A stretch of DNA of 64,000 nt. Source: Aromatoleum buckelii (GTDB lineage: Bacteria > Pseudomonadota > Gammaproteobacteria > Burkholderiales > Rhodocyclaceae). A program made the position numbers and the translations under genes. The stretch spans positions 1,488,001 through 1,552,000 of the forward strand of contig NZ_WTVH02000010.1 of the NCBI RefSeq assembly GCF_012910785.2, read 5' to 3'. Below, piece after piece: positions 45,788 to 63,708 of the stretch; the stretch's first letter is position 1, and each line of letters begins with the position of its first letter. The notes beneath the pieces were generated by a model. That model searched no databases. It was not told where the DNA came from and saw nothing but the letters and a program-made list of their open reading frames with translations.

Positions 45788-47218
45788 CTAATACGCGTGC
45801 GCGTCGCGAATCACGAGCCGGATCGTCATCAGGATGATCTTCAGGTCCAGCGACAGCGACCAGTGACGAAGGTAATCGAGGTCGTATTCGATCCGCCGCG
45901 CCATTTTTTCGACGGTGTCGGTTTCTCCCCTGCAGCCGTTCACTTGTGCCCAGCCGGTGATGCCCGGTTTGACCTTGTGGCGGATCATGTAGCCTTTGAT
46001 GACCTGCCGGTAGGTCTCGTTGTGCGCCACCGCGTGCGGGCGCGGCCCGACGATGCTCATGCGGCCCTGCAGCACGTTGATGAACTGCGGCAGCTCGTCC
46101 AGCGAGGTGCGCCGCAGCCAAGCGCCGAAACGCGTTACGCGAGGGTCTTCCCTGACGGCCTGGACGATTTGCGGACCGTCCTCGCAGACCGTCATCGAGC
46201 GGAACTTGTAGACCAGGATCTTGCGCCCGTCGAGCCCGTAACGGTTCTGCTTGAAGATGACCGGGCCCGGCGAACCGAGCTTCACGCCGATCGCGATCAG
46301 TACCATCAGCGGTGCGATGAGGATCAGGATCGCGCTCGCGAGGACGATGTCGGACAGCCGCTTGACGAGGCGGTTGACGCCAGTGAAAGGCGTTTCGCAG
46401 ACCGCGACGACCGGAGTGCCGGCAACATGATCGACGCGTCCCTGGATCAGGTCGGTCACGAACATGTCGGGGACGAAGAAAATCGACGCGGTGGTGTCCT
46501 TCATGTCGTCGAGGATGCGCAGAATGCGCGGCTGGCTCACCATCGGCAGCGCGATGTAGATGTGGTCGACGGCCTGCTCCTTCGTGTAGGCAGCCAGATC
46601 GCGAAGACAGCCGAGGCACACGCCGGTAGTCGTCCCGGACGTGCGCTGGGGAGTCCGGTCGTCGAAGAATCCGAGCAGATGCACCCCGAGGAAAGGGTTT
46701 TTCTCGATACCGCGCGCGAGCTGCATCGCGATGTCGTTCGAGCCGACGATCACTGCGCGGCGTTGCGTCCCGGCCCTCGACATGAGCCGTGGCAATGCGA
46801 CGCGCGATACCGCGTGCGCTGCGATGAGGGCAAGCGGTGTCCCCACGAGCCACACTGCCAGCACCGGCAGCGCGAAATAATGGATATAGCCGGTGACATA
46901 CCCGAACAGCACCAGCGCGCCTGCAATCAGCAGCCAGTTGAGCGCTGTCCGGCGCACCATCGTCCCCCTTCCGTCACACAGGTGGCTATCTCCCGGAAAC
47001 GTCAGTGAAAACGTCAGCAGCGCGAGAATCACATAATGGCTGTCGGGAACGACCTCGTAGAAATATGCCGAAGCAAATAGCAGACCGACCGCGATGAACG
47101 GGTCGACGACCGATTCGATTATGCTTGCCGTCGAAAAGCTGCCGTAGAAAAACGCGGCATTCGTCTCGGCAACGGGAGCCGAATCGGGAGGATGAGTGAA
47201 AATCGACGAGTTCGGCAC
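45788..47218 (-). CDS. Undecaprenyl-phosphate glucose-1-phosphate transferase (WcaJ/GumD-like)
   Basis: A 476-residue membrane enzyme that primes exopolysaccharide synthesis by moving a hexose-1-phosphate, expected to be glucose, onto undecaprenyl phosphate. Four to five N-terminal membrane segments, a central NAD-fold-like region (RRAVIVGSNDIAMQLARGIE) and a C-terminal bacterial sugar transferase domain (KRLSDIVLASAILI, VIFKQNRYGLDGRKI, RRTSLDELPQF, MSIVGPRPHAVAHN) are visible. It is divergent from the epsL gene, which opens the export block. By role it matches GumD of the xanthan pathway. Preference for glucose is inferred from family and cluster content. Confidence 0.92.
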   Translation of the reverse strand: MPNSSIFTHPPDSAPVAETNAAFFYGSFSTASIIESVVDPFIAVGLLFASAYFYEVVPDSHYVILALLTFSLTFPGDSHLCDGRGTMVRRTALNWLLIAGALVLFGYVTGYIHYFALPVLAVWLVGTPLALIAAHAVSRVALPRLMSRAGTQRRAVIVGSNDIAMQLARGIEKNPFLGVHLLGFFDDRTPQRTSGTTTGVCLGCLRDLAAYTKEQAVDHIYIALPMVSQPRILRILDDMKDTTASIFFVPDMFVTDLIQGRVDHVAGTPVVAVCETPFTGVNRLVKRLSDIVLASAILILIAPLMVLIAIGVKLGSPGPVIFKQNRYGLDGRKILVYKFRSMTVCEDGPQIVQAVREDPRVTRFGAWLRRTSLDELPQFINVLQGRMSIVGPRPHAVAHNETYRQVIKGYMIRHKVKPGITGWAQVNGCRGETDTVEKMARRIEYDLDYLRHWSLSLDLKIILMTIRLVIRDAHAY

Positions 47219-47304
47219 GGCATGCTCCTGACACAGGCCGAGGCGGACGCGCCTCCGAGTAGATATTCATAGCATCACCCAACAGCCAGGGGAGCTTGCC
47301 AGTC

Positions 47305-48564
47305 ATGACGAATGTAACAATACTTTATCGTGCCCGGGGATGGACTTCCTGCCGGGGTCACTGCTCGCACCGCCGGAGTGCACGTCATGTCCTGCACGTG
47401 CTCGCCGCGACGTGTGCGCTCCAAGGTTTCGCTGCCTCGGCGGCGACCGAGGTGGTGCCGGAGGAAGGTTTCACGGTGGGGCTCGGGCACTCCGTCTATC
47501 GGGAAGACAATCTCTTCCGGCTGCCTGACGACGTCCGGCCGCCGGAGGGGGGATCGAGGAGCGATCGCATCAGCCGCACAACGGCCGCGCTGAGATTCGA
47601 ACATACCTACAGCCTGCAACGCGTCGTCGCAGGGGTGGAGGTGACGCACCGCAACTACGATCGACACAATCAGCTCGACCGGACGACCACCAGCGGCGCG
47701 CTGCACTGGGACTGGGCCGCCGGACGGCAATGGACGGGGACGGCAACGCTGCTGCAGCGCCAAGCGCCACGAAGCTTCGCCGATACAGACCGCCGTATCC
47801 GCAGCATCAACACGCTGCGCAGGATCGGGGCCGACGCGGACTACTGGTGGCATCCAGACTGGTCGTTTCTGGTTGGTGCGGAACACACGCGCAGCCGCTA
47901 TTCGGACGAGCGTTCGGATGCTTCGGAGTATGACGAGAGCGCAGTCGAGGCCGGGATCGGGTACCGCCCGAAGTCCGGCAACCGGCTGTCGCTCGTGGCT
48001 CGCCAGGCCGACGGCGACTATCCGAACCGCACCCCTTCCGCACGCATCGATTCCGGCTACGAACAGCGCGACGTGCGGCTGCGGGGGAACTGGGTGTTGT
48101 CGGGAATCAGCAGTTTTTCCGGCTACGCCGGCTACACCCGGCGGGAATACGAACACGTCAGCAGCCTCGACTTCAGCGGCCCCACCGGGCGCATCACGTT
48201 CGACTGGGAGCCGACCGGCAAGCTGTCGTTCCAGGTCGTGGCGCGACGGGAGATCGGCTCCGAATACGAAGTCATCGACAACTACGTCGTCACCCGCGGA
48301 CTCGGCGTCGAGGGGATCTGGAAGGCCACTGACAAGATCACCGTCCGCGCGCGCGGCGAGCAGTATCGCAGGGACCGAGGGGACGTCGAGCTGCCGGCGC
48401 TCGACGACGACCGGACGCGGGTTCAGAGCCTGAGCGTCGGCTACGAACCGGTGCGCGACCTGACGATCACCGCGTCGGTCCAGCGCGCAAAACGCTCGGC
48501 CGCCGGGGAGCGGTTCGACTACACGGCGAAACTCCACGGGGTCGACGTAAGGCTCGACTTTTGA
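47305..48564 (+). CDS. epsL: EpsL-like outer membrane beta-barrel protein
   Basis: A 419-residue exported protein. The N-terminal stretch contains a signal peptide (hydrophobic core HVLHVLAATCALQGFAASAA). The mature part has repeated amphipathic strands of about 10 residues with aromatic and charged residues (RISRTTAALRFEHTYSLQ, FSGYAGYTRREYEHV, VRLDF at the terminus), the pattern of a large beta-barrel, as in EpsL of betaproteobacterial EPS operons. Its exact role in export is not known. The ATG at 47305 is preferred because GGGGAG is better spaced to it than to the TTG at 47296. It is the first gene of the rightward cluster. Confidence 0.85.
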   Translation: MTNVTILYRARGWTSCRGHCSHRRSARHVLHVLAATCALQGFAASAATEVVPEEGFTVGLGHSVYREDNLFRLPDDVRPPEGGSRSDRISRTTAALRFEHTYSLQRVVAGVEVTHRNYDRHNQLDRTTTSGALHWDWAAGRQWTGTATLLQRQAPRSFADTDRRIRSINTLRRIGADADYWWHPDWSFLVGAEHTRSRYSDERSDASEYDESAVEAGIGYRPKSGNRLSLVARQADGDYPNRTPSARIDSGYEQRDVRLRGNWVLSGISSFSGYAGYTRREYEHVSSLDFSGPTGRITFDWEPTGKLSFQVVARREIGSEYEVIDNYVVTRGLGVEGIWKATDKITVRARGEQYRRDRGDVELPALDDDRTRVQSLSVGYEPVRDLTITASVQRAKRSAAGERFDYTAKLHGVDVRLDF

Positions 48565-48751
48565 CCCACCCGTTTCGGGCTCGCCCGCGCTTCGACTAGC
48601 AGCCCGGCCCGCCCCTCTCGCAATAAAATGTTTCGGATTGTTGCGGGCCGCTCTTCAGCCAAATCCAAGTAAAAACCATTTACGTTTTATCGCTTTCCGG
48701 AGGTTGGGAAGCCGCGACGGAATACTACTCTTAGCTGGGTGAGGTATTCCT

Positions 48752-49183
48752 ATGGCGAACCTGTGCAGAGAATTCCAGCTCCTGGTAGCGGTGATCTTCA
48801 TCTGGATTTCGTATCCGGCCGAGGCAGTCCGGACGGTTGAGCTCGTTTCCGATGAGGAGCTGGCTCTCGTGACCGGGGGAGCCGCGTGGATCGACGCGTC
48901 ACCGTCGGTGCTGGGGCCGCTTTCGGGCAGCCCGGGGGACGTCAGCGTCTCTTTCGCTTTACTCGAGCCGGAGCAGGCGAAACCTGTCGTGATGCGGCGC
49001 TCGGCGGTCGATGTTTGGCCCCGCGATGATCCGGATGTCGTCGACGTGCCGGAAATCCTCGACGACTCGCAGCTTGCCAGCGGCCCGTACCGCTCACGCC
49101 GCGTTGAGGGCTGGGTCGCGGAAGCGGTTGCCGCGCTCGCAGTCGGGGCACTCGTGGCGCGCCGTCGGCTGGGTCGGCATTGA
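48752..49183 (+). CDS. Secreted small protein with double-glycine-like motif, function unknown
   Basis: A 143-residue protein with three readable parts. Residues 1-25 form a Sec signal peptide (FQLLVAVIFIWISYPAEA). Residues 31-42 read VSDEELALVTGG, which resembles the LSxxELxxIxGG leader of peptides processed by C39 peptidase transporters. The C-terminus is a hydrophobic helix followed by a basic tail (EAVAALAVGALVARRRLGRH), similar in layout to sorting signals of exosortase substrates, though the PEP motif is absent. GAGG lies seven bases before the ATG. It ends 12 bp before the EpsD-like gene, so it belongs to the EPS operon. No known family. Confidence 0.7.
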   Translation: MANLCREFQLLVAVIFIWISYPAEAVRTVELVSDEELALVTGGAAWIDASPSVLGPLSGSPGDVSVSFALLEPEQAKPVVMRRSAVDVWPRDDPDVVDVPEILDDSQLASGPYRSRRVEGWVAEAVAALAVGALVARRRLGRH

Positions 49184-49194
49184 GGCGCAAGGGC

Positions 49195-50082
49195 ATGCTG
49201 CCAAAGCGGAGATTCGCGGGCATGGCCCCAGTCTTGGCGATCGTGCTCGCGGCGTGTTCCCCGGCGCTCCCCGAAGATGTCGCGGCGCGCGTCAACGGGA
49301 CGGTAATTTCGGCCGCGGAACTCGATCTCACACTGCAGCACAGCGGCGTGGCGCAACACGACCAGGAGGTCCGTCGACGCCAGCTGGAGAAGCTCGTCAT
49401 CGAGGAACTGCTGGCGCAGCAGTTCCTGCGCAGCACTCCCGGGAGCGTCCGGGTGGAGGAATCGGCGGTGAGCGCGGCGCGGCGCGAGATCCTTGCGCGG
49501 CGCTACATCATGGACCTCGTCAACGGCATTCCGCCCCCGCAGGACGCCGAGATCGAGGCGTTTTACCGGGACAATCCGGCGATGTTCGCGCAGCGGCGGA
49601 TATTTGCCCTGCGGGAGTTCGAAATCTCTGCGCCGGCATCAAGGGAAACGGAACTGCGCCAGCATCTCCGCGCGGCGCACTCGCTCGAAGAGTTTGCCGA
49701 CTGGCTGCGCCGCGAGGAGCTGCCTTTTGTCATCACCGAAGCCGAACGCGGAGCGGAGGAGCTTCCAGCGGAGGTCGCGGCGCAACTGGCGGTCCTGAAG
49801 GAACGCGAGGTTGCACTGCTGTCCGGCCCCGCCGGCCTGCGCGTGATCGAGGTCGTCCGGGCGAGCGCCTCCCCACTCGACGAGAACGCCGCACGGCCGC
49901 TGATCGAGCGCCGCCTGTGGACCGAGAAACGGGTCGCGGCAGTCGACGCGGAGGTCCGCCGCCTGAGCCGGATGGCGGCGATCTCGATACTCGACGGCAC
50001 CGGCCGCAAGGACGCCGGCGGCATTCCGGGGCTGTCCCCGGGAGCAGCGGCAGTGCTGGCGCCAGCGCTTTCGCTCCCGTAA
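49195..50082 (+). CDS. epsD: EpsD-type peptidyl-prolyl isomerase-like lipoprotein
   Basis: A 295-residue exported protein with a lipobox (VLAACSP) near residue 21. The N-terminal part is a SurA-like chaperone helix region (VAARVNGTVISAAELDLTL, EKLVIEELLAQQFL) and the C-terminal part a parvulin-like PPIase region. Such EpsD proteins occur with EpsE, EpsF and EpsG in betaproteobacterial EPS operons and are thought to help the export machinery fold. The ATG at 49195 follows a GAGG; a TTG at 49180 overlapping the previous stop is the alternative. Confidence 0.82.
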   Translation: MLPKRRFAGMAPVLAIVLAACSPALPEDVAARVNGTVISAAELDLTLQHSGVAQHDQEVRRRQLEKLVIEELLAQQFLRSTPGSVRVEESAVSAARREILARRYIMDLVNGIPPPQDAEIEAFYRDNPAMFAQRRIFALREFEISAPASRETELRQHLRAAHSLEEFADWLRREELPFVITEAERGAEELPAEVAAQLAVLKEREVALLSGPAGLRVIEVVRASASPLDENAARPLIERRLWTEKRVAAVDAEVRRLSRMAAISILDGTGRKDAGGIPGLSPGAAAVLAPALSLP

Positions 50083-50128
50083 GCGCAGGCACAGCGAAGG
50101 TTCGACAACTGGCGAAGGAGACAGAGCA

Positions 50129-50920
50129 ATGCGAGGGCTGGCGAAAACAGTGGCGATCTGCGCCGTGACGGGATGGGCGGTCTGTGCGTCGGCCGGGGGC
50201 GAGTACCTGCTTTCCCCCGGGGACGTGATCCGTATCACCGTCTTCGAAAATCCGGACCTGACGACGGAGGCGCGCGTCTCCGAATCCGGCCAGGTATCGT
50301 TTCCGCTGGTGGGCGCGACGCAGGTCGGCGGCATGAGCGTCGCCGCGGCCGAAAAACGGATCGCGGGCGGGCTCAAGGAAGGCGGTTACGTGCTTGAGCC
50401 GCAGGTGATCATTTTTCCGCTCGAGATCCGCGGCAATCAGGTATCGGTGCTCGGCCGCGTCAATCGCGCCGGCCGCTTTCCGCTGGAGACGTCGAACATG
50501 CGCGTCGCCGACCTGCTCGCGCTCGCGGGCGGGGTCACTCCGGATGGCGCCGACGTCGTGGTCCTGACTGGAATGCGAGACGGGCAGCCGATGCGCCAGG
50601 AAATTCCGCTGGCGCAGCTTTTCTCGCGCGATCCGGCCGCCAATGTCGAACTGGCCGGCGGAGACATCCTGTTTGTGGACCGGGCACCGATTTTCTATGT
50701 CTATGGCGAAGTCCAGAAGCCAGGCGCCTACCGCATCGAGCCCGGCATGACGCTGATCCAGGCGCTCGCAACCGGCGGCGGCCTGACGAACCGCGGCACG
50801 GAACGCGGCATGCAGGTCCATCGCCGCGATGCGTCGGGCCAAGTCGACGTGTTGTCGATCGACCGCAACGCTCCGCTGCGCGCCGACGACGTGATCTACG
50901 TGAAGCAGAGCCTCTTCTGA
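50129..50920 (+). CDS. epsE: Polysaccharide export outer membrane protein, Wza/GumB-like
   Basis: A 263-residue protein with a signal peptide (cleavage after CASA near residue 23) and a Wza-type export domain (YLLSPGDVIRITVFENPDLT, then RVSESGQVSFPLVG) followed by an SLBB domain (VYGEVQKPGAYRIEPGMTLIQALATGGG). It is expected to form the outer-membrane export channel. No lipid-modified Cys at the mature end is seen, unlike classical Wza. The start follows GGAGACAGAGCA. It is coupled with EpsF, 11 bp downstream. Functionally it is equivalent to GumB. Confidence 0.92.
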   Translation: MRGLAKTVAICAVTGWAVCASAGGEYLLSPGDVIRITVFENPDLTTEARVSESGQVSFPLVGATQVGGMSVAAAEKRIAGGLKEGGYVLEPQVIIFPLEIRGNQVSVLGRVNRAGRFPLETSNMRVADLLALAGGVTPDGADVVVLTGMRDGQPMRQEIPLAQLFSRDPAANVELAGGDILFVDRAPIFYVYGEVQKPGAYRIEPGMTLIQALATGGGLTNRGTERGMQVHRRDASGQVDVLSIDRNAPLRADDVIYVKQSLF

Positions 50921-50931
50921 GGGACGCGGCC

Positions 50932-52293
50932 ATGACGATCCGCCAGATTTTCGTGATTTTGCGGGCACGCAGCCGGCTGATCTTCTCGGTGTTCATCGTC
51001 GTGGCTGCGGTCAGCGCCGTCGTGGCGGTGATCCTGCCGCGCAACTACACCGCGAACGTGGCGCTCGTCATCGACGCAAAATCCGCCAATGCGCTGCTCG
51101 GACAGATGCTGTCGTCGCAGATGCTGGGTGGCTATATGGCCACGCAGGTCGACATCATCGCCAGCCGGCGGGTCGTCGAACGTGCCGCAGCCACACCGGA
51201 AGTGGCCAACGACGAGGCGTTGCGCGCCGCTTGGCGAGCGGAGACCGGGGAGGAAGTCGCCTTCCCGCTGTGGCTCGCCGACGAAATCGAGAGCAATCTC
51301 GACGTCAAGCCTTCGCGCGACAGCAATGTCGTGCAGATCGCCTACACGTGCGCGGTCGCGGAGCAATGCGCAAACGTCGCCAACGCGGTGGCCAACGCGT
51401 ACATCGCCACCAATCTCGAAATGAAGGTGCAGCCGGCGCGGCAATACGCGCAGTGGTTCGAATCGCGCAACTCGAGCCTGCGCGAGACCGTCGAAGCGGC
51501 GCGCCGCAGGCTGTCGGACTATCAGCGCGAACACGGCATCGTCACGACCGACGAGCGGCTCGACGTCGAAACCGCACGCCTCGACGAACTTTCCCGCCAG
51601 CTCGTCACAGCGCAGTCCGAGCGCACCGACAGCCGTTCGCGGCGCAATCAGTCCGGTAGCGGCGAGATGCTTCCCGAGGTCGTGCAAAGTTCGCTGCTCG
51701 GCAGCCTGAAAGGCGAACTGGCGCGCCTGGAAGCGCAGCGTGAGCAGGCTACCGCGCGGCTGGGGCGCCGACACCCCGAGATCGTGCGGGCCGATCGCGA
51801 GATCGCGTCGCTGCAGGGGCGCATCGCGCTCGAGACGAGCCGAATCGTCGGATCGATCGACACGACCGATCGCGTGAACGCGGACCGCGTCGCCGAAATG
51901 CGCGAGGCGGTGGACGAACAGAAAGGGAAGGTGCTGAAGCTCAAGGCGCAACGCGACCAGATCGCGGTGCTGCAGAAAGACCTCGACAGCGCCCAGCAGG
52001 CCTACGACGTCGTCAATGGGCGCCTCGCCGAAACGAACCTGGAAAGCCAGGCACAGCAGACGAACGTCTTCGTGCTCGCGTCCGCGACACCGCCGCGCCT
52101 CCCGTCGTCGCCGCGGCGGGCCCTGATCGTCGCTTTGGCGTCCGTGCTCGGTGTGCTGCTCGGCGTGAGCCTTGCCCTCGGCCTCGAGATGATCCGGCGC
52201 CGCGTGCGCTCCGAGGCGGACGTCGTCGATGTGCTCGGAATTCCGGTGCTGGGCGCATTGCCGCGCGCCAAAAACACCCTGCTGCTGCGCTAG
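50932..52293 (+). CDS. epsF: Chain-length determinant / polysaccharide co-polymerase, EpsF (GumC/Wzc N-terminal type)
   Basis: A 453-residue inner membrane protein with a membrane segment at each end (about 15-35 and 405-427) and a long periplasmic part with coiled-coil (about 165-370). The end carries the Pro-rich segment RLPSSPRRALIVALASVLGV typical of PCP proteins. Unlike the fused Wzc, it has no kinase domain; the separate EpsG-like gene follows after 41 bp. It should set chain length and couple the polymerase to the EpsE pore. Confidence 0.9.
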   Translation: MTIRQIFVILRARSRLIFSVFIVVAAVSAVVAVILPRNYTANVALVIDAKSANALLGQMLSSQMLGGYMATQVDIIASRRVVERAAATPEVANDEALRAAWRAETGEEVAFPLWLADEIESNLDVKPSRDSNVVQIAYTCAVAEQCANVANAVANAYIATNLEMKVQPARQYAQWFESRNSSLRETVEAARRRLSDYQREHGIVTTDERLDVETARLDELSRQLVTAQSERTDSRSRRNQSGSGEMLPEVVQSSLLGSLKGELARLEAQREQATARLGRRHPEIVRADREIASLQGRIALETSRIVGSIDTTDRVNADRVAEMREAVDEQKGKVLKLKAQRDQIAVLQKDLDSAQQAYDVVNGRLAETNLESQAQQTNVFVLASATPPRLPSSPRRALIVALASVLGVLLGVSLALGLEMIRRRVRSEADVVDVLGIPVLGALPRAKNTLLLR

Positions 52294-52334
52294 CACGTCG
52301 AGCGCACCACCTTCGACCTGAACCGGGAGCTGTC

Positions 52335-53207
52335 ATGGACGCGACACCGAACATCATGGACATGAGGCCCGCCACCGAAGAGCAGTCGATCGGGGCGATT
52401 CTCGTCGAAACCGGCCGTCTCACGCCCGAAAACACCCAGGTCGTGCTGCGCGAGCAGAAGGCGAAAGGCGTTCCGTTCGGCGTGGCGGCGATCGAGCTCG
52501 GGCTGATCAGCCAGGCGGACGTCGATTTTGCGCTCGCGCGCCAGTTCGACTATCCGTACCTGCCGGCGCGCAGCGGCATCGTCGCGCGCGAGGTTGTCGC
52601 TGCCTATGCCCCGTTCGGGCCGGTCGCGGAGAGCCTGCGCCAGTTGCGCAGCCAAGTGTCGCTACGCTGGGCGAACAGCCGCTACGGCGCGCGGGCGCTC
52701 GCGCTCACCAGTGTCAATCGCGGCGAAGGGCGCAGCTTCGTCGCCGCGAACCTCGCAGTGGTGTTCGCGCAGATGGGCCTGCGCACACTCCTCGTCGACG
52801 CCGACCTGAGGCATCCGTCGCAGCACACGCTGTTCCACCTCGACAACCGCTTCGGGCTGTCGAACATGCTCGCGGGGCGCGTCGGCAGCGAAGCGATCGT
52901 GCGGATCGGGGCACTGCGCCACCTGTTCGTGCTGCCCGCTGGTCCGACGCCGCCGAACCCGCAGGAGCTGCTCGCCCGGCCGCTGCTCGCCAAGCGCCTG
53001 CGGGCGCTCGAGGATCTGTTCGATGTCGTGATACAGGACACGTCGGCAGCCCGCGTCGGCGCGGACGCGCAGATCGTCGCCGCCGCAGGCGGCAATACGA
53101 TGCTGGTGGCGCGCAAGAACAAGACATCGATGAAGGAGCTGCACGAACTTCGGGTGTCGCTCGAAGCGAGCGGTAGCCGGATACTCGGCGCCGTGGTGAA
53201 CGAATGA
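52335..53207 (+). CDS. epsG: EpsG-like BY-kinase (Wzc-type ATPase)
   Basis: A 290-residue cytoplasmic ATPase of the bacterial tyrosine kinase/MinD-like fold. The N-terminal 80 residues look like the MshEN/GspE N-terminal domain (SIGAILVETGRLTPENTQVVL). The Walker A-like motif is NRGEGRSFVAANLA, so the usual Lys after GEG is Arg, and the Walker A' segment is LLVDADLRHPSQH. Walker B is VVIQDTSA. The C-terminus lacks the tyrosine cluster of Wzc, so tyrosine phosphorylation is doubtful. It should work with EpsF as the cytoplasmic part of the export complex. Confidence 0.88.
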   Translation: MDATPNIMDMRPATEEQSIGAILVETGRLTPENTQVVLREQKAKGVPFGVAAIELGLISQADVDFALARQFDYPYLPARSGIVAREVVAAYAPFGPVAESLRQLRSQVSLRWANSRYGARALALTSVNRGEGRSFVAANLAVVFAQMGLRTLLVDADLRHPSQHTLFHLDNRFGLSNMLAGRVGSEAIVRIGALRHLFVLPAGPTPPNPQELLARPLLAKRLRALEDLFDVVIQDTSAARVGADAQIVAAAGGNTMLVARKNKTSMKELHELRVSLEASGSRILGAVVNE

Positions 53208-53250
53208 CGTTGCACCGGCACGTTTTCGGTCGCAGGCGAAACGGCGTTCG

Positions 53251-54552: not shown

Positions 54553-54554
54553 AC

Positions 54555-55673: not shown

Positions 55674-56686
55674 GCATGCGATGGCTGAGAAGGGCCGCAA
55701 TCGCAGGGAGCCTTCTGGCAGCGTCCGCCTCGTGGGCAGGATGTGTGGATGGCAGCCCTCTGACCGGCGTCAATATGGCCGGCGCGGAATTCAACTCGAA
55801 ACGCCTGCCCGGCACGATGTACAAGGACTATGTATATCCGACTGCGCAGGATCTGGGCTATTTCGCTTCGAAAGGCGCGACCGTGATCCGGCTGCCGTTT
55901 CGCTGGGAACGGGCCCAGCTCAACCTCATGGGAGCACTCGACGCGGCGCAGATGAACGCGATCACCAAGGTCGTCGCCGCTGCGGCCCCGCTCGGGCTGT
56001 GCGTGATTCTCGATGCACACAATTACGGCACCTATCACGGCAAGGCGATAGGGTCCGCGGACGTGCCCAAGGCAGCATTCCACGATTTCTGGACCAAGAT
56101 GGCCCAGCGCTTTCCGGATGCCTCGCAGGTCGCCTTCGGCCTGATGAACGAGCCGAAGGCAATGCCGATCCCGCAGTGGGCGGAGGTCGCACGAGGAACC
56201 GTCGCGGCGTTGCGCGAGGCCGGTGCGGACAACCTGCTCCTGGTCGGGGGCGGGCGGTGGAGCGGCGTCCACGAGTGGTTCAAGGAGTTTTCCGGAATAT
56301 CGAATGCGCAGGCGTTCGTCGACTTGTCGGACCCGCTCGGCCGCACGCTCATCGAAGTCCACCAGTACGCGAATCCCGGTTATTCCGGCACGACGACCGA
56401 CTGCCTCGCACCGTCGCATTTCGACCGCATGTTCGCGTCGATTTCCGACTGGGCGCGCGCGAACGGACACAAACTCTTCCTCGGCGAATTCGGAACGCCC
56501 GGCACCCCCGAGTGCCTCGCGACCCTCGACCACCTGCTGACGCTGGTGAGCAACCGCGACGTCTGGCGCGGCTGGGCCGTATGGGCGGCCGGGCGCTGGT
56601 GGGGGAGCTATCCCTTGAGCATCCACCCGAAGGATGGCGTCGACGCGCCGCAGATGAGCGTCGTGTCGCCATACCTCGGAAAATGA
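55670..56686 (+). CDS. Secreted GH5 endoglucanase-like glycoside hydrolase
   Basis: A 338-residue family GH5 enzyme with a Sec signal peptide (cleavage near residue 23, ASAS-WAG). The acid/base Glu is in GLMNEPK, the nucleophile in LGEFGTPG; an active-site HQYAN follows EV and HNYGTYHGK carries the conserved His. Related enzymes cut beta-1,4-glucan. Its start overlaps the GumH-like stop (ATGA), so it is produced with the EPS enzymes. It might trim or clear the polymer in the periplasm, like BcsZ in cellulose operons; that would fit a cellulosic backbone. Confidence 0.9.
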   Translation: MSMRWLRRAAIAGSLLAASASWAGCVDGSPLTGVNMAGAEFNSKRLPGTMYKDYVYPTAQDLGYFASKGATVIRLPFRWERAQLNLMGALDAAQMNAITKVVAAAAPLGLCVILDAHNYGTYHGKAIGSADVPKAAFHDFWTKMAQRFPDASQVAFGLMNEPKAMPIPQWAEVARGTVAALREAGADNLLLVGGGRWSGVHEWFKEFSGISNAQAFVDLSDPLGRTLIEVHQYANPGYSGTTTDCLAPSHFDRMFASISDWARANGHKLFLGEFGTPGTPECLATLDHLLTLVSNRDVWRGWAVWAAGRWWGSYPLSIHPKDGVDAPQMSVVSPYLGK

Positions 56687-56695
56687 GCAGTCGAG

Positions 56696-56833
56696 ATGAT
56701 GATGCTCGCCATGACCGTCGGCGTTACCACCGCCATCGCCGTGGTGGTCCACCTGGCACGCTTCGGCCTGCCTTCCGCCGGACGCCATATCGAGGGCACC
56801 GGCACGGAACTGGGGAGGCCCGTATCCCCGTGA
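56696..56833 (+). CDS. Candidate small membrane protein
   Basis: A 45-residue frame filling the space between the GH5 stop (9 bp upstream) and the next glycosyltransferase, whose GTG overlaps its stop (GTGA). It starts with ATG-ATG-ATG and has one hydrophobic segment (TTAIAVVVHLARFGLP). No family is recognised. The tight spacing and coupling support translation, but chance cannot be excluded. Confidence 0.42.
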   Translation: MMMLAMTVGVTTAIAVVVHLARFGLPSAGRHIEGTGTELGRPVSP

Positions 56834-58089
56834 ACATTGCCTTTTTCACCGCCCGCTTTCCGGTCTTGTCCGAGACCTTCGTGATTCGTCAGGTCGCGGG
56901 GCTGAAGCGACTCGGCCATGACGTCACCGTCATCACCGCCGAATGGGGCGACCCGGGGCTCGCGCACGCGATCTATTGCGACAACGAGTTGGGCAAGCAT
57001 GTGCGCGCGCTTCGAATGGTCCACGGTTCGCGCTGGCGGATGCTGACGCTTGCCCGCTTTCTCGTCCGGAGCCTGGTCAGCACAGCGGGGCTGCGCCGGC
57101 TCGGCGTCGCTCTGCGCGCCGCGCTGACCGGCAGCTCCGCTGCTCTGCTGGATATCGCCGCCCAGACTTCGCACGGTTCGATCGGCCGTTTCGACGCCAT
57201 CGTTGCGCACTTCGGGCCGATGGGCGTGCGCGCGATGTATTTGCGCGAGGCCGGGCTCGTTGAAGGGCCGATCGCAACGATCTTCCACGGCCACGACATG
57301 AGCGACCGGAACACGGTCGCGCGCCACCTCGGCAATTACCGGCGGTTGTTCGCCGACACCGAGCGCATGTTGCCAATCAGCGCCCTGTGGGGACAGCAAC
57401 TGCAGAAGTGGGGCTGCCCGCCGTCCTGCATCAAAGTGCTGCGCATGGGCGTCGATGTCGATGCGCTGCCCACGCTGGCGCCCGAGCGCCCGCTCGGACG
57501 CCCGCTGCGCGTGCTCAGCGTCGCGCGCTTCACCGAAAAGAAGGGGCTGGACTATGCCATTCGCGGGGTCATCGGCGCGCGGGCCGATGTTCGCCTCGAG
57601 ATCATCGGCGGCGGCCCGCTGGCAGCCGAACTGCGCGCGCTCGCCGCGCCGGCCGGCGAGCGCATCGTTTTTCTCGGCGAGCAGCCGCAGCAGGTGGTGT
57701 TCGCCGCGCTCGCACGCGCGGACGTCTTTCTGTTGCCGTCAGTGACCGCTGCCGACGGGGACATGGAGGGCATCCCGGTCGCGCTGATGGAAGCGATGGC
57801 GAGCGGAACGCTGGTACTGACGACGCGCCACAGCGCCATCCCCGAGCTCGTCGAGCATGGCGTCTCGGGTCTGCTCGTCGACGAGCGCGACGCCGGAGCG
57901 ATCAGCACCTGGGTCGAGCGCATCGCTGCAGGAGCCGTCGATGTCGTCGCGATGCGCACTGCGGCGCGGTGCAAGGTCGCGCGCGAATTCAACAATGCCC
58001 TGCTCGATAAAGAGCTCGCGCGACACTGCGCCGAACTCGGCTGCGTGTCCGCGAAGCCCGATGATCAATGCGTGGCGGCCAAGGCATGA
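56830..58089 (+). CDS. GT4 glycosyltransferase, WcaL/AmsK-like
   Basis: A 419-residue GT4 enzyme. The opening [24 protein letters not shown] is characteristic of the colanic acid/amylovoran transferase group (WcaL/AmsK), [10 protein letters not shown] lies in the middle, and the C-terminal half has [16 protein letters not shown] and [15 protein letters not shown] with the donor-binding Glu. It occupies the place where xanthan clusters have GumI, but belongs to a different group, so a different side-chain sugar is possible. GTG start coupled to the small upstream frame. Donor and acceptor unknown. Confidence 0.87.
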
Positions 58090-58100
58090 AGGAGCCCGAC

Positions 58101-59246
58101 ATGAATCGAGACCTACAGGACGCAATGCGTGGCCCGGAAAGCTTCCTCGTCCTCTCTGCGCACGATTACCGCTCGCCGCGCAAGGCGAACATTCACTTCA
58201 TCACCGAGCAGCTCGCCAAGCGCGGGCCGACGCGTTTCTTTTCGCTGCGTTACAGCCTGCTGTCGCGCTACACGGCAGATCCGCGCCTGCCGATCGATGG
58301 GTGCGCGAACCGCATCGAACGGCATCGCGGCGTCGATTGCTTCCTGTGGAAAACGCAGGTTCATCCGTTCAACACGCGGCGCCCGCTGCTGCGCCCGGTC
58401 GAAGCGCTGATGTTCGGCTGGTATCTACGGGCAGCCAGCCCGGTGCTGTTGCGCTGGATCGCCGAGGCGAGCGTGATCCTCTTCGAGAGCGGCACCGCGC
58501 CGGTGTTTTTCGAGCTCGCGAGGCGGATGAATCCTGCGGCGAAGACGGTTTATATCGCCTCCGACGACCTCGACACGATCAACTCGGCCGACTACGTCAA
58601 GCGCACTTTCCTCCGCATCGCGCCGTCGATCGACATCATCCGCCTGCCGTCCCGTGCGCTCGCGCGGACGATCCCGAGCAGCGGCAACCTTTATTTCATC
58701 CCGCACGGCATCGATCCAGGGCTCGCGTCACAGGGCGATCCCTCCCCGTACGGCCCCGGTATCCACGCGGTGTCGGTGGGTTCGATGCTGTTCGACGCGG
58801 AGTTCTTCGCCTGCGCTTCACGCCGCTTTCCGCACATCAGTTTCCATGTCATCGGCTCAGGCCGGCCACGGTGCGCGGACTACGGCAGCAACGTCATCGT
58901 CCATGACGAGATGCCGCACGCCGACACCGTGCGCTTCATCAAGCATGCGCACTTCGGCATCGCGCCCTACCGCACGGCGCAGCTGCCCGACTATCTCGCC
59001 GACACCTCAATGAAGTTGATCCAGTACGACTTTCTCGGCCTGCCCGCGGTCTGCCCCCGCGAGGTCGTGGGCGACTACCGCAGCCGCTTCGGCTACCGGC
59101 CCAGCGACGAGGAGTCGATCGTCGCAGCGATCAAGGCCGCTCTCGAAGCGCCCCGCGAACCGAGCCGCGCGCACCCGAGCTGGTCGGACGTCGCCGATCG
59201 CGTCCTCCAGCCGACCCGCTATTCAGACACCCGGATACGCACATGA
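58101..59246 (+). CDS. GumK-like GT70 glucuronosyltransferase
   Basis: A 381-residue membrane-associated enzyme that I recognise as a close relative of GumK, the GT70 glucuronosyltransferase of xanthan synthesis, which adds beta-1,2-GlcA to the mannose of the lipid-linked trisaccharide. Shared stretches include [50 protein letters not shown] and [22 protein letters not shown]. The catalytic-base Asp maps to Asp155 ([10 protein letters not shown]) and the donor-site Lys is in TSMKL. The ATG at 58101 has AGGAG seven bases upstream. This is the most specific sign of a xanthan-like pathway. Confidence 0.93.
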
Positions 59247-60031
59247 ACTCCACGACACAACCCGTCGAGACCCTGTCGATTGCCGGCTTCCCTGTCCTGC
59301 ACAGCAGCGCATCGGCGCTGAGGGAACGCATGCTGGCGGTGCTCGACGGCGGCGAGCAGACGGCGCTTTTCTTCGCCAACACCAACTTCATTGTCCAGTG
59401 CGCGCAGCTGCGCAAGCGTATGCACGCACCGGACATCCTGATCGCGAACGATGGCGTCGGCCTCGACATCGCTGCACGGATGATCCACCGTCACCGCTTC
59501 GTCGAGAATCTCAACGGCACCGATTTCATCCCGCCGCTGCTCGAGCGGGCGAAGCGTCCGGTGTTTCTTCTCGGCGCGCGTCCGGGCGTGGCGCGGCGGG
59601 CCGCGGACCGGTTGCGCAAGGAGCACGGGGTCACGGTCCTCGGAGTGTGCGACGGCTATGCAGGAACGGCCGACCCGGAACGTCTGATCCGATGGATCAA
59701 CGACTCGGGTGCCGAGGTCGTCCTCGTCGCCTTCGGCAATCCGCTGCAGGAGGAATGGATCCTGCGGCATCGCGGACGTCTCGATGCGCGCCTGTTGATC
59801 GGGGTCGGTGCGCTGTTCGATTTCCTCGCCGGCGACAAGGCACGCGCGCCCGACATCGTCCGGCGTCTGCGGCTCGAATGGCTGTATCGCCTCGGCCGGG
59901 AGCCGCGCCGGCTGGCGCGGCGCTACACGATCGACATCGCGCGTTTCCTCGTGTTGTGCCTCGCTGCCGACAAGGAAACCGCCAGCGCGTCGGAGAACTT
60001 CAAGTCCGGTCAGACCGGGCGGGGCATATAA
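59243..60031 (+). CDS. WecG/TagA/GumM-like GT26 glycosyltransferase
   Basis: A 262-residue membrane-associated enzyme of the GT26 family. Family motifs: [59 protein letters not shown] and [11 protein letters not shown]. In xanthan synthesis GumM adds the second glucose to Glc-PP-undecaprenol. The stop of the GumK-like gene overlaps its ATG (ATGA). A 142-bp gap with no recognisable gene follows. Confidence 0.9.
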
Positions 60032-60173
60032 CCCAAGTTTGAAAACCCGCCGCAGTAACCTGTGGTCGCCCCCGCCGCTCCATCGCTGGTCGGCATCGAG
60101 CGCATCGTTCGAGTCCCGATCAGCAGATGGAACGCTCGCAAGCCCACGCCCACTTCGGACAGACGGAGCATGC

Positions 60174-61184
60174 ATGTTGGTGTCAGTCATCATTCCGGCG
60201 TTCAATGTCGCCGGATGTCTGAACCGCGCGATCGATTCGGTGCTCGCACAGACGATCGCGGACTTCGAGATCATCGTCGTTGACGACGCTTCGAGCGATA
60301 CGACGGCGGAGCTCGTGCGGCGGCGTGCTGCCGAGGATTCGCGGATACATTTGCTGCAAAACCCGGTGAACGCCGGGCCGTCCGTCGCACGCAATCGTGG
60401 CATTGCGGCTGCCCGCTCCGAGTGGGTTGCGATACTCGATGCGGACGATGCCTATGAGCCGGACCGGCTCGCAGCCCTGTGCGCCATCGGCGAGGCCAAG
60501 CAGGCGGCCCTGGTGGCGGACAACCTCGTTCTCTACGACGCGGCTGCCGGATTGCGCACCGGCGTCGGGCTGGAGGACCGGAGCGAAGATGCGGTCGAGA
60601 TCATCAGCGTCGAAGACTTCTTACGCAACTGCATCACCGGCCGTTCGCCCTTCGACCTCGGACAGTTGAAAGGGTTGATGCGGCGGGACTTCCTGCGCGA
60701 GCACGCGCTGCGCTATGCGGACGATCTGCGCCACGGCGAGGATTTCGATCTGTACGCGCGGCTGTTGCTGGCAGGCGGCAGATTCGTGTTGGTCGGCAAA
60801 TCGTATTACCTGTTCACGCAGCGCATCGGAACGGTCAGCGCCAAGCCGTCGGGGTTCTCCCGCACCATTGCCAACTACGACGGGATGCGCAACGCGACGC
60901 TCGCGCTGCTGTCCCATCCGGCTGTTCGCGGGAACGCGGTACGCGAGGATTTGTTGCGCGCCCGAGCCGATGCGATCCGCTGGCACAAGAGCCGCACGGT
61001 TTTAGGGGGCTTGCTGCAGAGTCGTGACGTTCCCGGGCTGCTGCGCGCTTGCCTGATGGACTGGCGGATCGGCGCGGTGCTCGTACGCAAGCTCGCGGGC
61101 CGGTTGCACCGGACCACGTTCGCTTCGAGCATGCAGGGCGCGCTCATCGCGGCCGTCGCAGTCAGATTGCTGGACTCGACATGA
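60174..61184 (+). CDS. GT2 glycosyltransferase
   Basis: A 336-residue GT2 enzyme: VSVIIPAFNVAGCLNRAIDSVLAQT and EIIVVDDASSD at the N-terminus, a DADDAYE metal/nucleotide motif near residue 90, and HGEDFDLYARLLLAGG as the acceptor-side motif. It is expected to add one sugar of the repeat unit or a branch; donor and linkage unknown. The ATG at 60174 has CGGAG seven bases upstream. Its stop overlaps the flippase start (ATGA). Confidence 0.88.
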   Translation: MLVSVIIPAFNVAGCLNRAIDSVLAQTIADFEIIVVDDASSDTTAELVRRRAAEDSRIHLLQNPVNAGPSVARNRGIAAARSEWVAILDADDAYEPDRLAALCAIGEAKQAALVADNLVLYDAAAGLRTGVGLEDRSEDAVEIISVEDFLRNCITGRSPFDLGQLKGLMRRDFLREHALRYADDLRHGEDFDLYARLLLAGGRFVLVGKSYYLFTQRIGTVSAKPSGFSRTIANYDGMRNATLALLSHPAVRGNAVREDLLRARADAIRWHKSRTVLGGLLQSRDVPGLLRACLMDWRIGAVLVRKLAGRLHRTTFASSMQGALIAAVAVRLLDST

Positions 61185-62641
61185 CGACCGCCCGGATCTT
61201 CTTTTCGAGCATCGCCTGGAGTTCGGCCGCAGATATCGGCCAGCGGGCGTTCTCGTTCCTGGTATTGCTGATCCTGGTGCGACTGCTCACGCCGCAGGAA
61301 TTCGGCACGGCGGCGACGGCGTTGATGATCATCCAGCTGCTGCAACCGGTCAGCCGCTTCGGCCTTTACGATTACCTGATCTTTCGCGAAGAAGCCGACG
61401 AGTCGGTCAAAGGCGCCGCTTGGCTGACCTCGGTCGGGTTTGGGCTGTCGGCTTCGATCCTGCTGTTCGCGCTCGCCGGGCCGATAGCCCTGGCATTCTC
61501 CGATGCGCAGCTGGCTCCCGTGCTCCGCGCCTTGAGCCCCGTGTTCCTGCTGCGCTCGCTCAGCTGCGTGCACGAGGCCTTGCTGGCGAAGCAGTTCGGG
61601 TTCAAATTCCTCGCCCTGAGAACGGTGAGTGCCGTGTTCGTCGCCGGCGTGATCGCGATCGCCCTCGCCTATTCTGGATGGGGCGTCTACAGCCTCGTGA
61701 TCCAGCAACTGGTGAACGCCTTGGTGTCGAGCGTCGTGTTGTGCCTCTCCTATCGCTGGTGGCCGCGCTTCGCCGGCGTCACGGCGACCTTGCGCACCGT
61801 GGTCGCCGGCGGCTGCAAATACACCGCCGCGCAACTGTTCTCGTCGCTGAACAACACCATCTATGGCCTGGCCATCGGGTTTTTCGTCAGCACCGAGGCG
61901 GCCGGTGTGTTCCGTCTCGCATGGACCGGCCTGGACCTGTGCATCCAGCTGACGATCCGCCCGTTCGCGCAGGTGGCGCAGCCGTTATTCGCGCGGATGC
62001 AGGCCGACCGCAAACGCCTCGGCGAAGCTTTCATCAAGGTATGTCAGCACTGTGCCGTGGTGACCTTCCTGGTGTTCGGATGGATGGCGGTCATGGGACC
62101 GGAGGTGGGTACGTTCGCTTATGGCGCCCGCTGGGCGGGCGCCGGCGAAGTGCTGTCCATCATTTGCTTCGTGGTGTTCCCCGCGACGCCGAATTACCTG
62201 ATCGCCGTGCTGCTCAACGCCGTGGGACAGCCGGACCGCGTCTCGACGCTCTCGGCGGTGCAATCCGCACTCAGCGTGCTGTTCGCCGTCGTCGCCGTGC
62301 ATTGGGGTATGACCGGGATTGCCATCGCCTTCGTACTTCGCGCGCTGATCACGACACCGCTGGGGTTCGTCTTCCTCAAGCGCAGCGCCGACGTCCGCGG
62401 GCGGGATATCGGGCGCGCGCTGGCGGCGCCCGTCATCGCCGCAACCCTGACGATGCTGGTCATCGCGGCGGCCAAAAATTTCGCGCCGCAGTTCCACCCG
62501 GTACTGCTGACCCTCATCGTTAGCGGCATTGCCGCGGTGGTGATCTACGGCGCAGCCCTGTTCCAGTTGCAGCGAGAATTGCTGATGAATCTGTGGTCCT
62601 TGTTCAGCCACAAGCTGGGCCAAGCGAGCGTGCCGAAATGA
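61181..62641 (+). CDS. Wzx-type flippase, GumJ-like
   Basis: A 486-residue protein with 12-14 membrane segments of the MOP polysaccharide exporter family, expected to flip the lipid-linked repeat unit across the inner membrane. Signature stretches are LVLLILVRLLTPQEFGTAATALM near the N-terminus and NNTIYGLAIGFFVSTEAAGVF in the middle. It is coupled by ATGA overlap to the GT2 gene upstream and to the pyruvyl transferase downstream. GumJ has the same role in xanthan assembly. Confidence 0.9.
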   Translation: MTTARIFFSSIAWSSAADIGQRAFSFLVLLILVRLLTPQEFGTAATALMIIQLLQPVSRFGLYDYLIFREEADESVKGAAWLTSVGFGLSASILLFALAGPIALAFSDAQLAPVLRALSPVFLLRSLSCVHEALLAKQFGFKFLALRTVSAVFVAGVIAIALAYSGWGVYSLVIQQLVNALVSSVVLCLSYRWWPRFAGVTATLRTVVAGGCKYTAAQLFSSLNNTIYGLAIGFFVSTEAAGVFRLAWTGLDLCIQLTIRPFAQVAQPLFARMQADRKRLGEAFIKVCQHCAVVTFLVFGWMAVMGPEVGTFAYGARWAGAGEVLSIICFVVFPATPNYLIAVLLNAVGQPDRVSTLSAVQSALSVLFAVVAVHWGMTGIAIAFVLRALITTPLGFVFLKRSADVRGRDIGRALAAPVIAATLTMLVIAAAKNFAPQFHPVLLTLIVSGIAAVVIYGAALFQLQRELLMNLWSLFSHKLGQASVPK

Positions 62642-63708
62642 AGCTGTTCCACTGGGCGTCGAGCGACGGCAATTTCGGCGACGACATGAACCTGTTCCTC
62701 TGGGAACATTTCCTGCCCGGCGTGTTCGACAGGAATGACGATGCGCTCTTCATCGGCATCGGTACGATCCTGTCCGCCGATATTCCCAAGGCGCGTCACC
62801 GTATCGTGATGGGCAGCGGTACCGGTTACGGACGCTTGCCCGCCGATCTCGGCGACGGCAGCTGGCACATCTATGCCGTGCGCGGCCCGCTCACTGCCCG
62901 AGCGATCAAGGCGGATCCGGAGCTCGCGGTGGCCGATCCGGCGATTCTTCTGCCGCTACTGCCGGACTTCGTGTCGGCCTCGCGAGACGGTGTCGCCTTC
63001 GTGCCACATTGGACGACGGCCGAGGAAGGCATCTGGCAAACCGCCTGCGCTCGCGCCGGTTTCGATTTCATCGATCCGCGGCACGAAGCCAAGCGCGTGA
63101 TTCGGCAGATCGCCTCGGCGCAGCTGGTGATTGCCGAGTCCATGCATGGGGCGATCGTGGCCGACGCATTTCGCGTTCCGTGGATCGCGATCGTCAGCGG
63201 CCGCGACACGCCTTTGAAGTGGCACGACTGGGCGTTGGCGCTGGACATGGAATATCGGCCTTACGAGGTGGGACCGCTGAGCGTGATCCCGATGGTCCGC
63301 GGCGGCCGTCGAGAGGTATCTTCGGTCCGGGCCGAGATGAGTGCGCAGGAGTACACGTCGGGCGTCGATGCGGCGGTCAGCAGCTTCGTGGAACGTTCCT
63401 TACGGCCCGCGGCAGCCGTCCGGCCCGGAGCTGGAGCGCGCGCCAAGGCCCGCATTGGCCGCCTGCTCGATCGCGCGGGTCATTCCATGCTCGCGGATCG
63501 GGGAGCGCGGATGCTGACCCGGATCAGCAAGCTCCCGCCGCGGCTCAGCGCCGACGGTGTGCTGCGCGACAGGCAAACCGAGCTCATGAGGCGGATCGAA
63601 TCGTTTCACGAGGATTGGAGCGCGGGAGCGTTCTCCGCGTCGCGGCCTCCAGACCACCCGGGACGAGCGATGAACCCAGCGCCGCAGGTCTTGCAGAACG
63701 GACGATGA
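62638..63708 (+). CDS. Polysaccharide pyruvyl transferase, GumL-like
   Basis: A 356-residue protein of the polysaccharide pyruvyl transferase family, which transfers pyruvate from phosphoenolpyruvate to a sugar as a ketal. Conserved features: FHWASSDGNFGDDMNLFLWEHF at the N-terminus, FIGIGTIL, GSGTGYG, RGPLTAR and IAESMHGAIVADA. The core ends near residue 250; about 100 further residues are basic, less conserved and might mediate interaction. ATGA overlap with the flippase. In xanthan, GumL pyruvylates the terminal mannose; the acceptor here is unknown. Confidence 0.9.
   Translation: MKLFHWASSDGNFGDDMNLFLWEHFLPGVFDRNDDALFIGIGTILSADIPKARHRIVMGSGTGYGRLPADLGDGSWHIYAVRGPLTARAIKADPELAVADPAILLPLLPDFVSASRDGVAFVPHWTTAEEGIWQTACARAGFDFIDPRHEAKRVIRQIASAQLVIAESMHGAIVADAFRVPWIAIVSGRDTPLKWHDWALALDMEYRPYEVGPLSVIPMVRGGRREVSSVRAEMSAQEYTSGVDAAVSSFVERSLRPAAAVRPGAGARAKARIGRLLDRAGHSMLADRGARMLTRISKLPPRLSADGVLRDRQTELMRRIESFHEDWSAGAFSASRPPDHPGRAMNPAPQVLQNGR

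Follow-up and report, generated by a model that had tools for sequence, protein, structure and literature searches.

What polymer is built by a locus that combines xanthan-type synthesis genes with Eps-type export genes, and what is a cellulase-family gene doing inside it? The question is raised by 16 genes (A–P) of Aromatoleum buckelii, which lie in the window, the 64,000-nt stretch of NZ_WTVH02000010.1 analysed here and within which all positions below are counted. Pfam and NCBIfam matches and the gene coordinates delimit a Wzx/Wzy exopolysaccharide (EPS) locus that occupies exactly 45788-63708, placed on G000:C2 (4.16 Mb, 10 contigs), where G000 is the window's genome; other G and L numbers are likewise handles for genomes and loci. 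An earlier sequence-only reading had reported an EPS locus at this place and took it for xanthan genes on a betaproteobacterial Eps export chassis, but overlooked the glycoside hydrolase family 5 (GH5) cellulase gene J inside the operon. Its observation is confirmed with corrections and its interpretation is partly supported. The reading favoured here, with a probability of about 0.75, is that of an acetan/xanthan-family Wzx/Wzy EPS locus with a predicted core of glucose-glucose-mannose-glucuronic acid (Glc-Glc-Man-GlcA), a variable outer side chain, and GH5 processing of the backbone.

The gum-type core

The genes of the predicted core, the polymerase and the GH5 enzyme are listed below. Percentages are tblastn identities, over the given number of amino acids (aa), to the gum genes of Pseudoxanthomonas sp. 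CF125 (L026), which were named by order and similarity; the cut-off was 1e-4.

45788..47218, minus strand: A, GumD/WcaJ-type undecaprenyl-phosphate glucose phosphotransferase, the initiating enzyme (TIGR03023, 517 bits, cut-off 411; PF02397; GumD 44%, 327 aa)
53251..54552, plus strand: H, Wzy polymerase, GumE homologue (31%, 312 aa, 80 bits)
54549..55673, plus strand: I, GumH-type glycosyltransferase family 4 (GT4) mannosyltransferase (GT4 Pfams; 52%, 367 aa)
55670..56686, plus strand: J, predicted secreted GH5 endo-beta-1,4-glucanase (PF00150, E 4e-48)
58086..59246, plus strand: L, GumK, GT70 glucuronosyltransferase by homology (PF22059, 214 bits, E 2e-63; PDB 2hy7, 497 bits; 60%, 392 aa)
59243..60031, plus strand: M, GumM-type WecG/TagA-family glucosyltransferase (PF03808; 51%, 241 aa)

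The GumD-, GumE-, GumH-, GumK- and GumM-like labels given earlier therefore hold. H has no match in Pfam or NCBIfam, and a PDB search with M returned three sequences whose names all place them with the N-acetylmannosaminyltransferases. L carries the GumK_N domain (PF22059), shows full-length similarity to X. campestris GumK and aligns with PDB 2hy7 over residues 25-390. The cited part of PMC12768416 describes Asp157 of GumK as catalytic and Lys307 as a donor-site residue. These correspond to Asp160 and Lys310 of L, both invariant in 4/4 aligned GumKs, and their retention had been noted correctly before. In the numbering of the 2hy7 alignment, L keeps the equivalents of Arg29, Asp157, Met231, Tyr292, Tyr300, Leu301, Asp303, Ser305, Met306, Lys307, and Gln310, and does not keep those of Ser160, Met189, and Glu192. 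Judged by its sequence, L is a true GT70 GumK.

From gene content, homology, key residues, and the GH5-gumH synteny described below, we infer the enzymatic steps, the sugars, and the GH5 substrate as follows. GumD would load Glc-1-P onto undecaprenyl phosphate, GumM would attach a beta-1,4-linked Glc, GumH an alpha-1,3-linked Man, and GumK a beta-1,2-linked GlcA. This gives the predicted lipid-linked tetrasaccharide Glc-Glc-Man-GlcA, a prediction made earlier and supported by the present comparisons. A WcaL-like GT4 (K) and a GT2 enzyme (N) may then extend the side chain at the step where xanthan uses GumI, with P possibly adding a pyruvate ketal. The Wzx protein O would flip the repeat unit, the GumE-like Wzy H would polymerise these units to form a beta-1,4-glucan backbone, and EpsF, EpsG, and EpsE together with EpsL would carry out export. 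Secreted J would trim or cut the cellulosic backbone, in the periplasm or outside, and might thereby set chain length or clear misdirected polymer.

As to precursor supply, galU adjoins the locus, one GDP-mannose enzyme scores over its cut-off in the genome, and four UDP/GDP-sugar dehydrogenase domain matches, assigned at the level of the domain, are present. PF02397 initiating sugar-transferase genes also occur at G000:C2:1027836-1028387 and C2:1296848-1297429, and the genome therefore probably holds other polysaccharide loci.

The GH5 gene beside gumH

J is a protein of 338 aa in which GH5 is the sole domain found. Its closest solved relatives are named cellulases (PDB 5hpc and 4w7u, ~314 bits), and a signal peptide is probable, judged by eye. 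E161 (NEP motif) and E273 (GEFG motif), which we take to be the GH5 catalytic pair, are invariant across 22 aligned loci. The gene overlaps gumH by 4 bases (ATGA) and is the single GH5 match of its kind in the genome (E 0.001).

A single scan of named genomes was made with a GumK alignment, ignoring GH5, and returned 35 loci, each scored over a stretch that reaches at most 10 kb from GumK in both directions. The search patterns came from four GumKs of the family Rhodocyclaceae, and the sample is biased towards GumKs like that of the window, with no Xanthomonas and no Komagataeibacter. GH5 lies within the stretch in 25/35 loci. In 22 of them it directly follows gumH when scored genes alone are counted; the other three are L050 and, with a GH5 of a distant lineage, L046 and L052. 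The gap between the gumH stop and the point where the GH5 alignment starts is <115 bases in all measured loci but L034 (971, still counted among the 22), L046, and L052. None of the six xanthomonad loci (L024, L025, L026, L035, L036, L051) has GH5 in the stretch. Across whole genomes, 15 of the 16 tested have some GH5 match, including five xanthomonads; in xanthomonad G542 the matches are only split and partial, and Parvibaculaceae G551 has none.

Within the family, GumK_N scores above cut-off in 4/150 genomes (G000, G137, G026, G086), which represent two genera and are weak as independent evidence. With weak matches included, 16/150 genomes have a GH5; six have one of >350 bits, namely these four with G089 and G030. 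The same-genus genomes G044 and G100 have neither a GumK_N nor a GH5 match. G089 and G030 (79% and 92% complete) gave no GumK_N match, and their loci L072 and L073, from one genus of the same family, encode EpsL, D, E, F, G, a GumE-like Wzy, GumH (60-61%), GH5 (53%), and GumM (59%); gumD is seen in L072. Since gumH-GH5-gumM is retained in both loci with no GumK match, GH5 appears to follow the backbone genes, which two genomes from a single genus can suggest but not prove. The middle of the L072 cluster holds Wzx, GT2, a sulfotransferase-family gene, and GT4. The sulfotransferase-family gene of this GumK-less relative (L072:13241-14596) hints at a sulfated variant of the polymer.

The GH5 tree was built from 40 sequences of at least 100 bits covering >60% of J, an entry rule that excluded most weak matches; L102 was dropped because it is the L052 gene again. 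A branch with support of 94/86, a little short of the starred level, sets apart 29 GH5s from beta- and gammaproteobacterial loci, 27 of them joined at 100/99. On the opposite side are the xanthomonad GH5s L095-L098, which lie on contigs other than that of the gum stretch, with L060, L061, L062, L099, L100, L046, and L052. Near L060 and L061, no homologue of a further window gene was seen. The split between GH5s in loci and those elsewhere is not clean, because L062 adjoins a gumM homologue and falls outside the clade. The long branch of 2.7 changes per column on which L046 and L052 join suggests a separate recruitment of GH5 in acetan-type alphaproteobacterial loci.

Pairwise gene distances were compared over 22 loci: 18 of the 35 named loci with the window, G137, G026, and G086, and no xanthomonads. 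The other 17 named loci had a needed gene out of view or below the score threshold. GH5 distances correlate with those of GumK (0.83), GumH (0.85), GumM (0.88), Wzy (0.78), EpsF (0.82), and EpsE (0.73), while the other 15 gene pairs give r of 0.79-0.93.

That J is a plant cell-wall cellulase located in the EPS operon by chance is unlikely. Its named cellulase relatives would fit this, and the Kozakia baliensis authors read the endoglucanase of their gum-like cluster as plant-wall degrading (PMC5050591, in the part cited). Against it, the same in-locus GH5 clade is found in Marinobacter, Halorhodospira, and an Ectothiorhodospiraceae metagenome-assembled genome (MAG), the gene adjoins gumH across lineages in addition to overlapping it in the window, and GH5s from outside gum loci fall mostly elsewhere in the tree. 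The backbone of the locus EPS is the preferred, predicted substrate of J.

Several points weigh against the acetan/xanthan-family reading with backbone processing. The polymer itself is predicted from the genes. GH5 is a broad family, and similarity to cellulases leaves the EPS unproven as the substrate of J. Ten of the 35 GumK loci lack GH5 in the stretch, six xanthomonad and four alphaproteobacterial (L042, L044, L048, L053) by a class grouping that we assume, where L035 (a 5.4-kb contig) and L053 (GumK cut) are unable to show absence. In L050, the GH5 gene runs in the opposite direction and is separated from GumK by several kb, with gumH out of view. The L062 GH5 stands beside a gumM homologue (50%) yet does not join the locus clade; its branch is very long (1.98) and its placement unsure. 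The in-locus GH5s (PF00150) of Acidisoma L052 and MAG L046 belong to a distant lineage. Shared ancestry alone can yield distance correlations such as these (all 21 pairs 0.73-0.93). Beyond GH5, P is far from GumL, and K and N are assigned to glycosyltransferase families but to no particular donor sugar.

Two side observations concern GH5 genes outside the scored set. L076 (G085:C199, 3918 bases), whose GH5 is L062, carries this gene at 34% identity to J near the gumM homologue (50%) in a genome of the same family, and may represent another locus for a cellulosic EPS, equipped with a GH5 of its own. Acidisoma has a second GH5 (G552:C14:58345-59250) at 40-41% to J, ~2 kb past the L052 stretch.

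Precedents exist for each element. The acetan locus carries the glycoside hydrolase Eg and acetan is built by a similar series of steps, according to the cited part of PMC7961339, and Kozakia gum-like clusters contain a putative endoglucanase (PMC5050591). In Xylella fastidiosa, the GH5 beta-1,4-endoglucanase EngXCA2 acts on a xanthan-like EPS: it cleaves the organism's own beta-1,4-glucan EPS, reducing its size, and the EPS of the deletion mutant is larger (PMC10653819, in the part cited). J resembles EngXCA2 by description only, and differs in having 338 aa with a GH5 domain only. A further difference may be position, as EngXCA2 is presumably encoded outside the Xylella gum locus. Among the top-listed results of the open-access literature searched, no description was found of the conserved pairing of gumH and GH5 across beta- and gammaproteobacteria, outside acetic acid bacteria. 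The cited part of a paper on Herbaspirillum EPS likewise yielded no gum-type cluster with a cellulase (PMC4195743).

The Eps export genes and the relatives of the locus

Export is assigned to five genes, whose NCBIfam equivalog models all score above their curated cut-offs, in agreement with the sequence-only reading. These models are, we assume, tied to the methanolan cluster.

47219..47304, no strand: divergent gumD-epsL interval of 86 bp, likely promoter region (inferred from coordinates)
47305..48564, plus strand: B, EpsL outer-membrane beta-barrel (TIGR03014, 333.5 bits, cut-off 275)
49180..50082, plus strand: D, EpsD peptidyl-prolyl isomerase (TIGR02925, 136 bits, cut-off 108.9)
50129..50920, plus strand: E, EpsE, Wza-type outer-membrane export protein (TIGR03028, 342 bits, cut-off 262.65)
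50932..52293, plus strand: F, EpsF, Wzz/polysaccharide co-polymerase (PCP) chain-length protein (TIGR03017, 476.6 bits, cut-off 422.75)
52335..53207, plus strand: G, EpsG tyrosine autokinase (TIGR03029, 323 bits, cut-off 313.8)

The gene gumD diverges from epsL and all remaining genes are on the plus strand. A split Wza/PCP/kinase set of the EpsE-F-G type recurs together with gumE-gumH-GH5-gumK-gumM in Marinobacter, Cellvibrio, Oxalicibacterium, Halorhodospira, and others. An EpsG-like kinase match is present in 21/25 GH5-positive loci vs. 0/6 xanthomonad loci; no xanthomonad stretch extends more than slightly upstream of the EpsF-like gene, and a kinase farther upstream would be out of view.

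The view that the locus is a recent hybrid, with xanthan genes put on a betaproteobacterial Eps export chassis, was the framing given to it earlier and is now quite improbable. The export genes are of Eps type, as it requires, and GumK is sporadic: beside the four genomes of the family, GumK_N is matched at E 0.001 in 6/399 genomes of the order, of which 5 pass the cut-off and 3 reach full strength (217-227 bits; no others exceed 200). This distribution makes horizontal gain of the whole locus likely. What the hybrid view does not fit is the recurrence of EpsE-F-G-type genes with gumE-gumH-GH5-gumK-gumM in beta and gamma lineages, and the EpsF-GumH distance correlation of 0.93, which is no weaker than the correlations between one core gene and another. 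The divergent gumD/epsL arrangement is moreover shared by G137, G026, G086, and L072. In this sample, biased as it is, the EpsE-F-G exporter with gumE-gumH-GH5-gumK-gumM is the commoner arrangement. By these comparisons the Xanthomonas-type locus is the outlier in the present sample and the window locus is not an odd hybrid.

A wider proposal can be made tentatively, at a little under even odds. The set gumE-gumH-GH5-gumM with an EpsE-F-G exporter would define a widespread class of EPS with a cellulosic backbone, in which a dedicated single-domain GH5 enzyme is a fixed part while the outer sugars, and the GlcA that GumK transfers, are exchangeable additions. The Xanthomonas gum locus would then be an atypical branch whose cluster lacks this enzyme, and a GH5 enzyme encoded elsewhere in the genome may substitute. 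If true, the Xylella GH5 case and the acetic-acid-bacterial endoglucanase would become instances of a general rule, by which a dedicated backbone-cutting enzyme accompanies xanthan-family polymers outside xanthomonads. This would bear on the chain length and viscosity of xanthan-like gums, and the GH5 partner would serve as a marker for finding more polymers of the class.

Among characterised systems, the locus is likened first to those of acetan in Komagataeibacter xylinus, Kozakia, and Gluconacetobacter, with a GumD/AceA, AceB, AceC, and GumK core (PMC7961339, PMC5050591, in the parts cited). The acetan genes listed there do not include GumI and the cluster holds a glycoside hydrolase, both of which are true of the window. 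Unlike acetan loci, the window locus has EpsLDEFG export and a pyruvyltransferase-like gene, and its GH5 lineage is distant from the in-locus GH5 of the alphaproteobacterial-type L046 and L052. In this comparison AceB is taken to be the counterpart of GumM. Plasmid searches with GumK and GH5 returned 12 and 6 records, all of <60% identity, and no genus name among them belongs to the acetic acid bacteria. The xanthan gumB-M locus, as seen in Pseudoxanthomonas (L024-L026), likewise clusters GumD, E, H, K, and M homologues; it differs in gene order and in GumI, GumL, and GumF, which were not found in the window, whereas the window has GH5 and an EpsG-type kinase. The presence of the GH5 gene places the locus nearer to acetan-type than to xanthan loci.

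All five members of the EpsL-D-E-F-G set are present in the window, with no exosortase in the locus. The single exosortase match in the genome (PF09721; G000:C4:66767-67519, L086) is of the XrtA type (XrtA 337 bits, cut-off 208), and XrtB was not found in the genome, its model giving 65 bits on this sole exosortase vs. a cut-off of 275. The EpsL model (TIGR03014) carries an XrtB-associated name though no XrtB was found in the genome. The XrtA exosortase has a fused EpsI-like domain, with a UDP-sugar dehydrogenase domain nearby at C4:75699, and six PEP-CTERM matches, five of them strong, occur elsewhere in the genome.

Predicted side chain, possible pyruvate and the remaining genes

The outer part of the repeat unit and its transfer across the membrane are assigned to four genes.

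56830..58089, plus strand: K, WcaL-like GT4, candidate for the outer side chain (TIGR04005, 290 bits, below cut-off 538)
60174..61184, plus strand: N, GT2 glycosyltransferase, candidate for the outer side chain (PF00535, E 2e-33)
61181..62641, plus strand: O, generic MOP-type Wzx flippase (PF13440; PRK10459, 142 bits, cut-off 273)
62638..63708, plus strand: P, pyruvyltransferase family member, distant from GumL (PF04230, 37.1 bits, cut-off 25.3)

The absence of GumI noted earlier is borne out: no match was found in the window by tblastn at 1e-4 or genome-wide at 0.001, with a query that finds ten loci, including its own source, in the same tblastn. The GumF query, named by gene position and itself without a Pfam match, had no window match at 1e-4 and matches five xanthomonad loci only. 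The reported lack of an acetyltransferase also stands, as no acyltransferase or acetyltransferase Pfam was matched among the 16 products; GumG was not searched individually.

Two labels could not be kept. O had been called GumJ-like, which was rejected, since it has only 26% identity over 425 aa to GumJ and scores with other MOP flippases, its best-scoring model being PRK10459. P had been called GumL-like, and this was rejected as the Pseudoxanthomonas GumL query has no match in the window at 1e-4, despite matches in nine non-xanthomonad loci. Comparison of P with the GumL family by hhalign gave 98.4%, with 28% identity over 185 columns, which is distant homology, and a PDB search with P returned nothing up to E 1. 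Pyruvylation of the polymer, proposed earlier, is weakened: P belongs to the pyruvyltransferase family and may add a pyruvate ketal, but closer GumL homologues are those of the nine other loci. These are at 45-54% in Azoarcus L020 and Oxalicibacterium L032, L034, and L037, and at 39-42% in L027-L030 and L040. The last five loci, also outside xanthomonads, hold GumI homologues at 28-31%. The cited part of a review states that GumI and GumL are without homologues in other organisms (PMC6801904), a statement to which the GumL homologues (39-54%) and weaker GumI homologues run counter.

A homologue of K at 56% is found in L018, a same-family Eps locus whose GumK_N match is weak. A product nearer to colanic-type side chains than to xanthan, with its acidic residue set by K or N and not by GumK, would fit the WcaL-like score of K and the MOP model favoured by O. 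It is very improbable, as both scores fall far under curated cut-offs, the key residues of GumK are kept, and GumH and GumM are close to xanthomonad versions.

Tight coupling by ATGA overlaps, as reported earlier, is read at H/I, I/J, K/L, L/M, N/O, and O/P. An ATGA is also present at J/K, where the overlap is doubtful, and the C/D overlap is TTGA and hinges on a TTG start. A start of K at ATG 56683, which would create the J/K overlap, was rejected in favour of GTG 56830, which is likelier because WcaL similarity begins there and the K frame of G137 opens 83 bases past GH5. For N, TTG 60039 was rejected and ATG 60174 is more likely, because the best GT2 models match the longer version from residues 46-49 onward.

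Outside the locus lie typA upstream and, on the opposite strand downstream, galU, ligA, and zipA. Among named relatives, the closest one found was Aromatoleum anaerobium (L019), in which 14/15 genes in view are 89-98% identical and gene C is 74%; gumD is beyond that stretch and epsL is cut.

48752..49183, plus strand: C, small protein, probably secreted, whose C-terminus has a helix and an Arg cluster (matches no family)

Gene C, between epsL and epsD, was assigned to no family in the family-library searches and is 73% identical in the congener G137. It ends in a hydrophobic helix and an Arg cluster, with the PEP motif absent, and may be a positional analogue that lacks PEP. Small proteins whose ends resemble that of C are encoded at the same position in L015:4578-5540, L017:5814-6674, L072:3597-4022, and L073:14562-14999, and the gene at this position in L018 (L018:18160-18912) encodes a PEP-CTERM protein.

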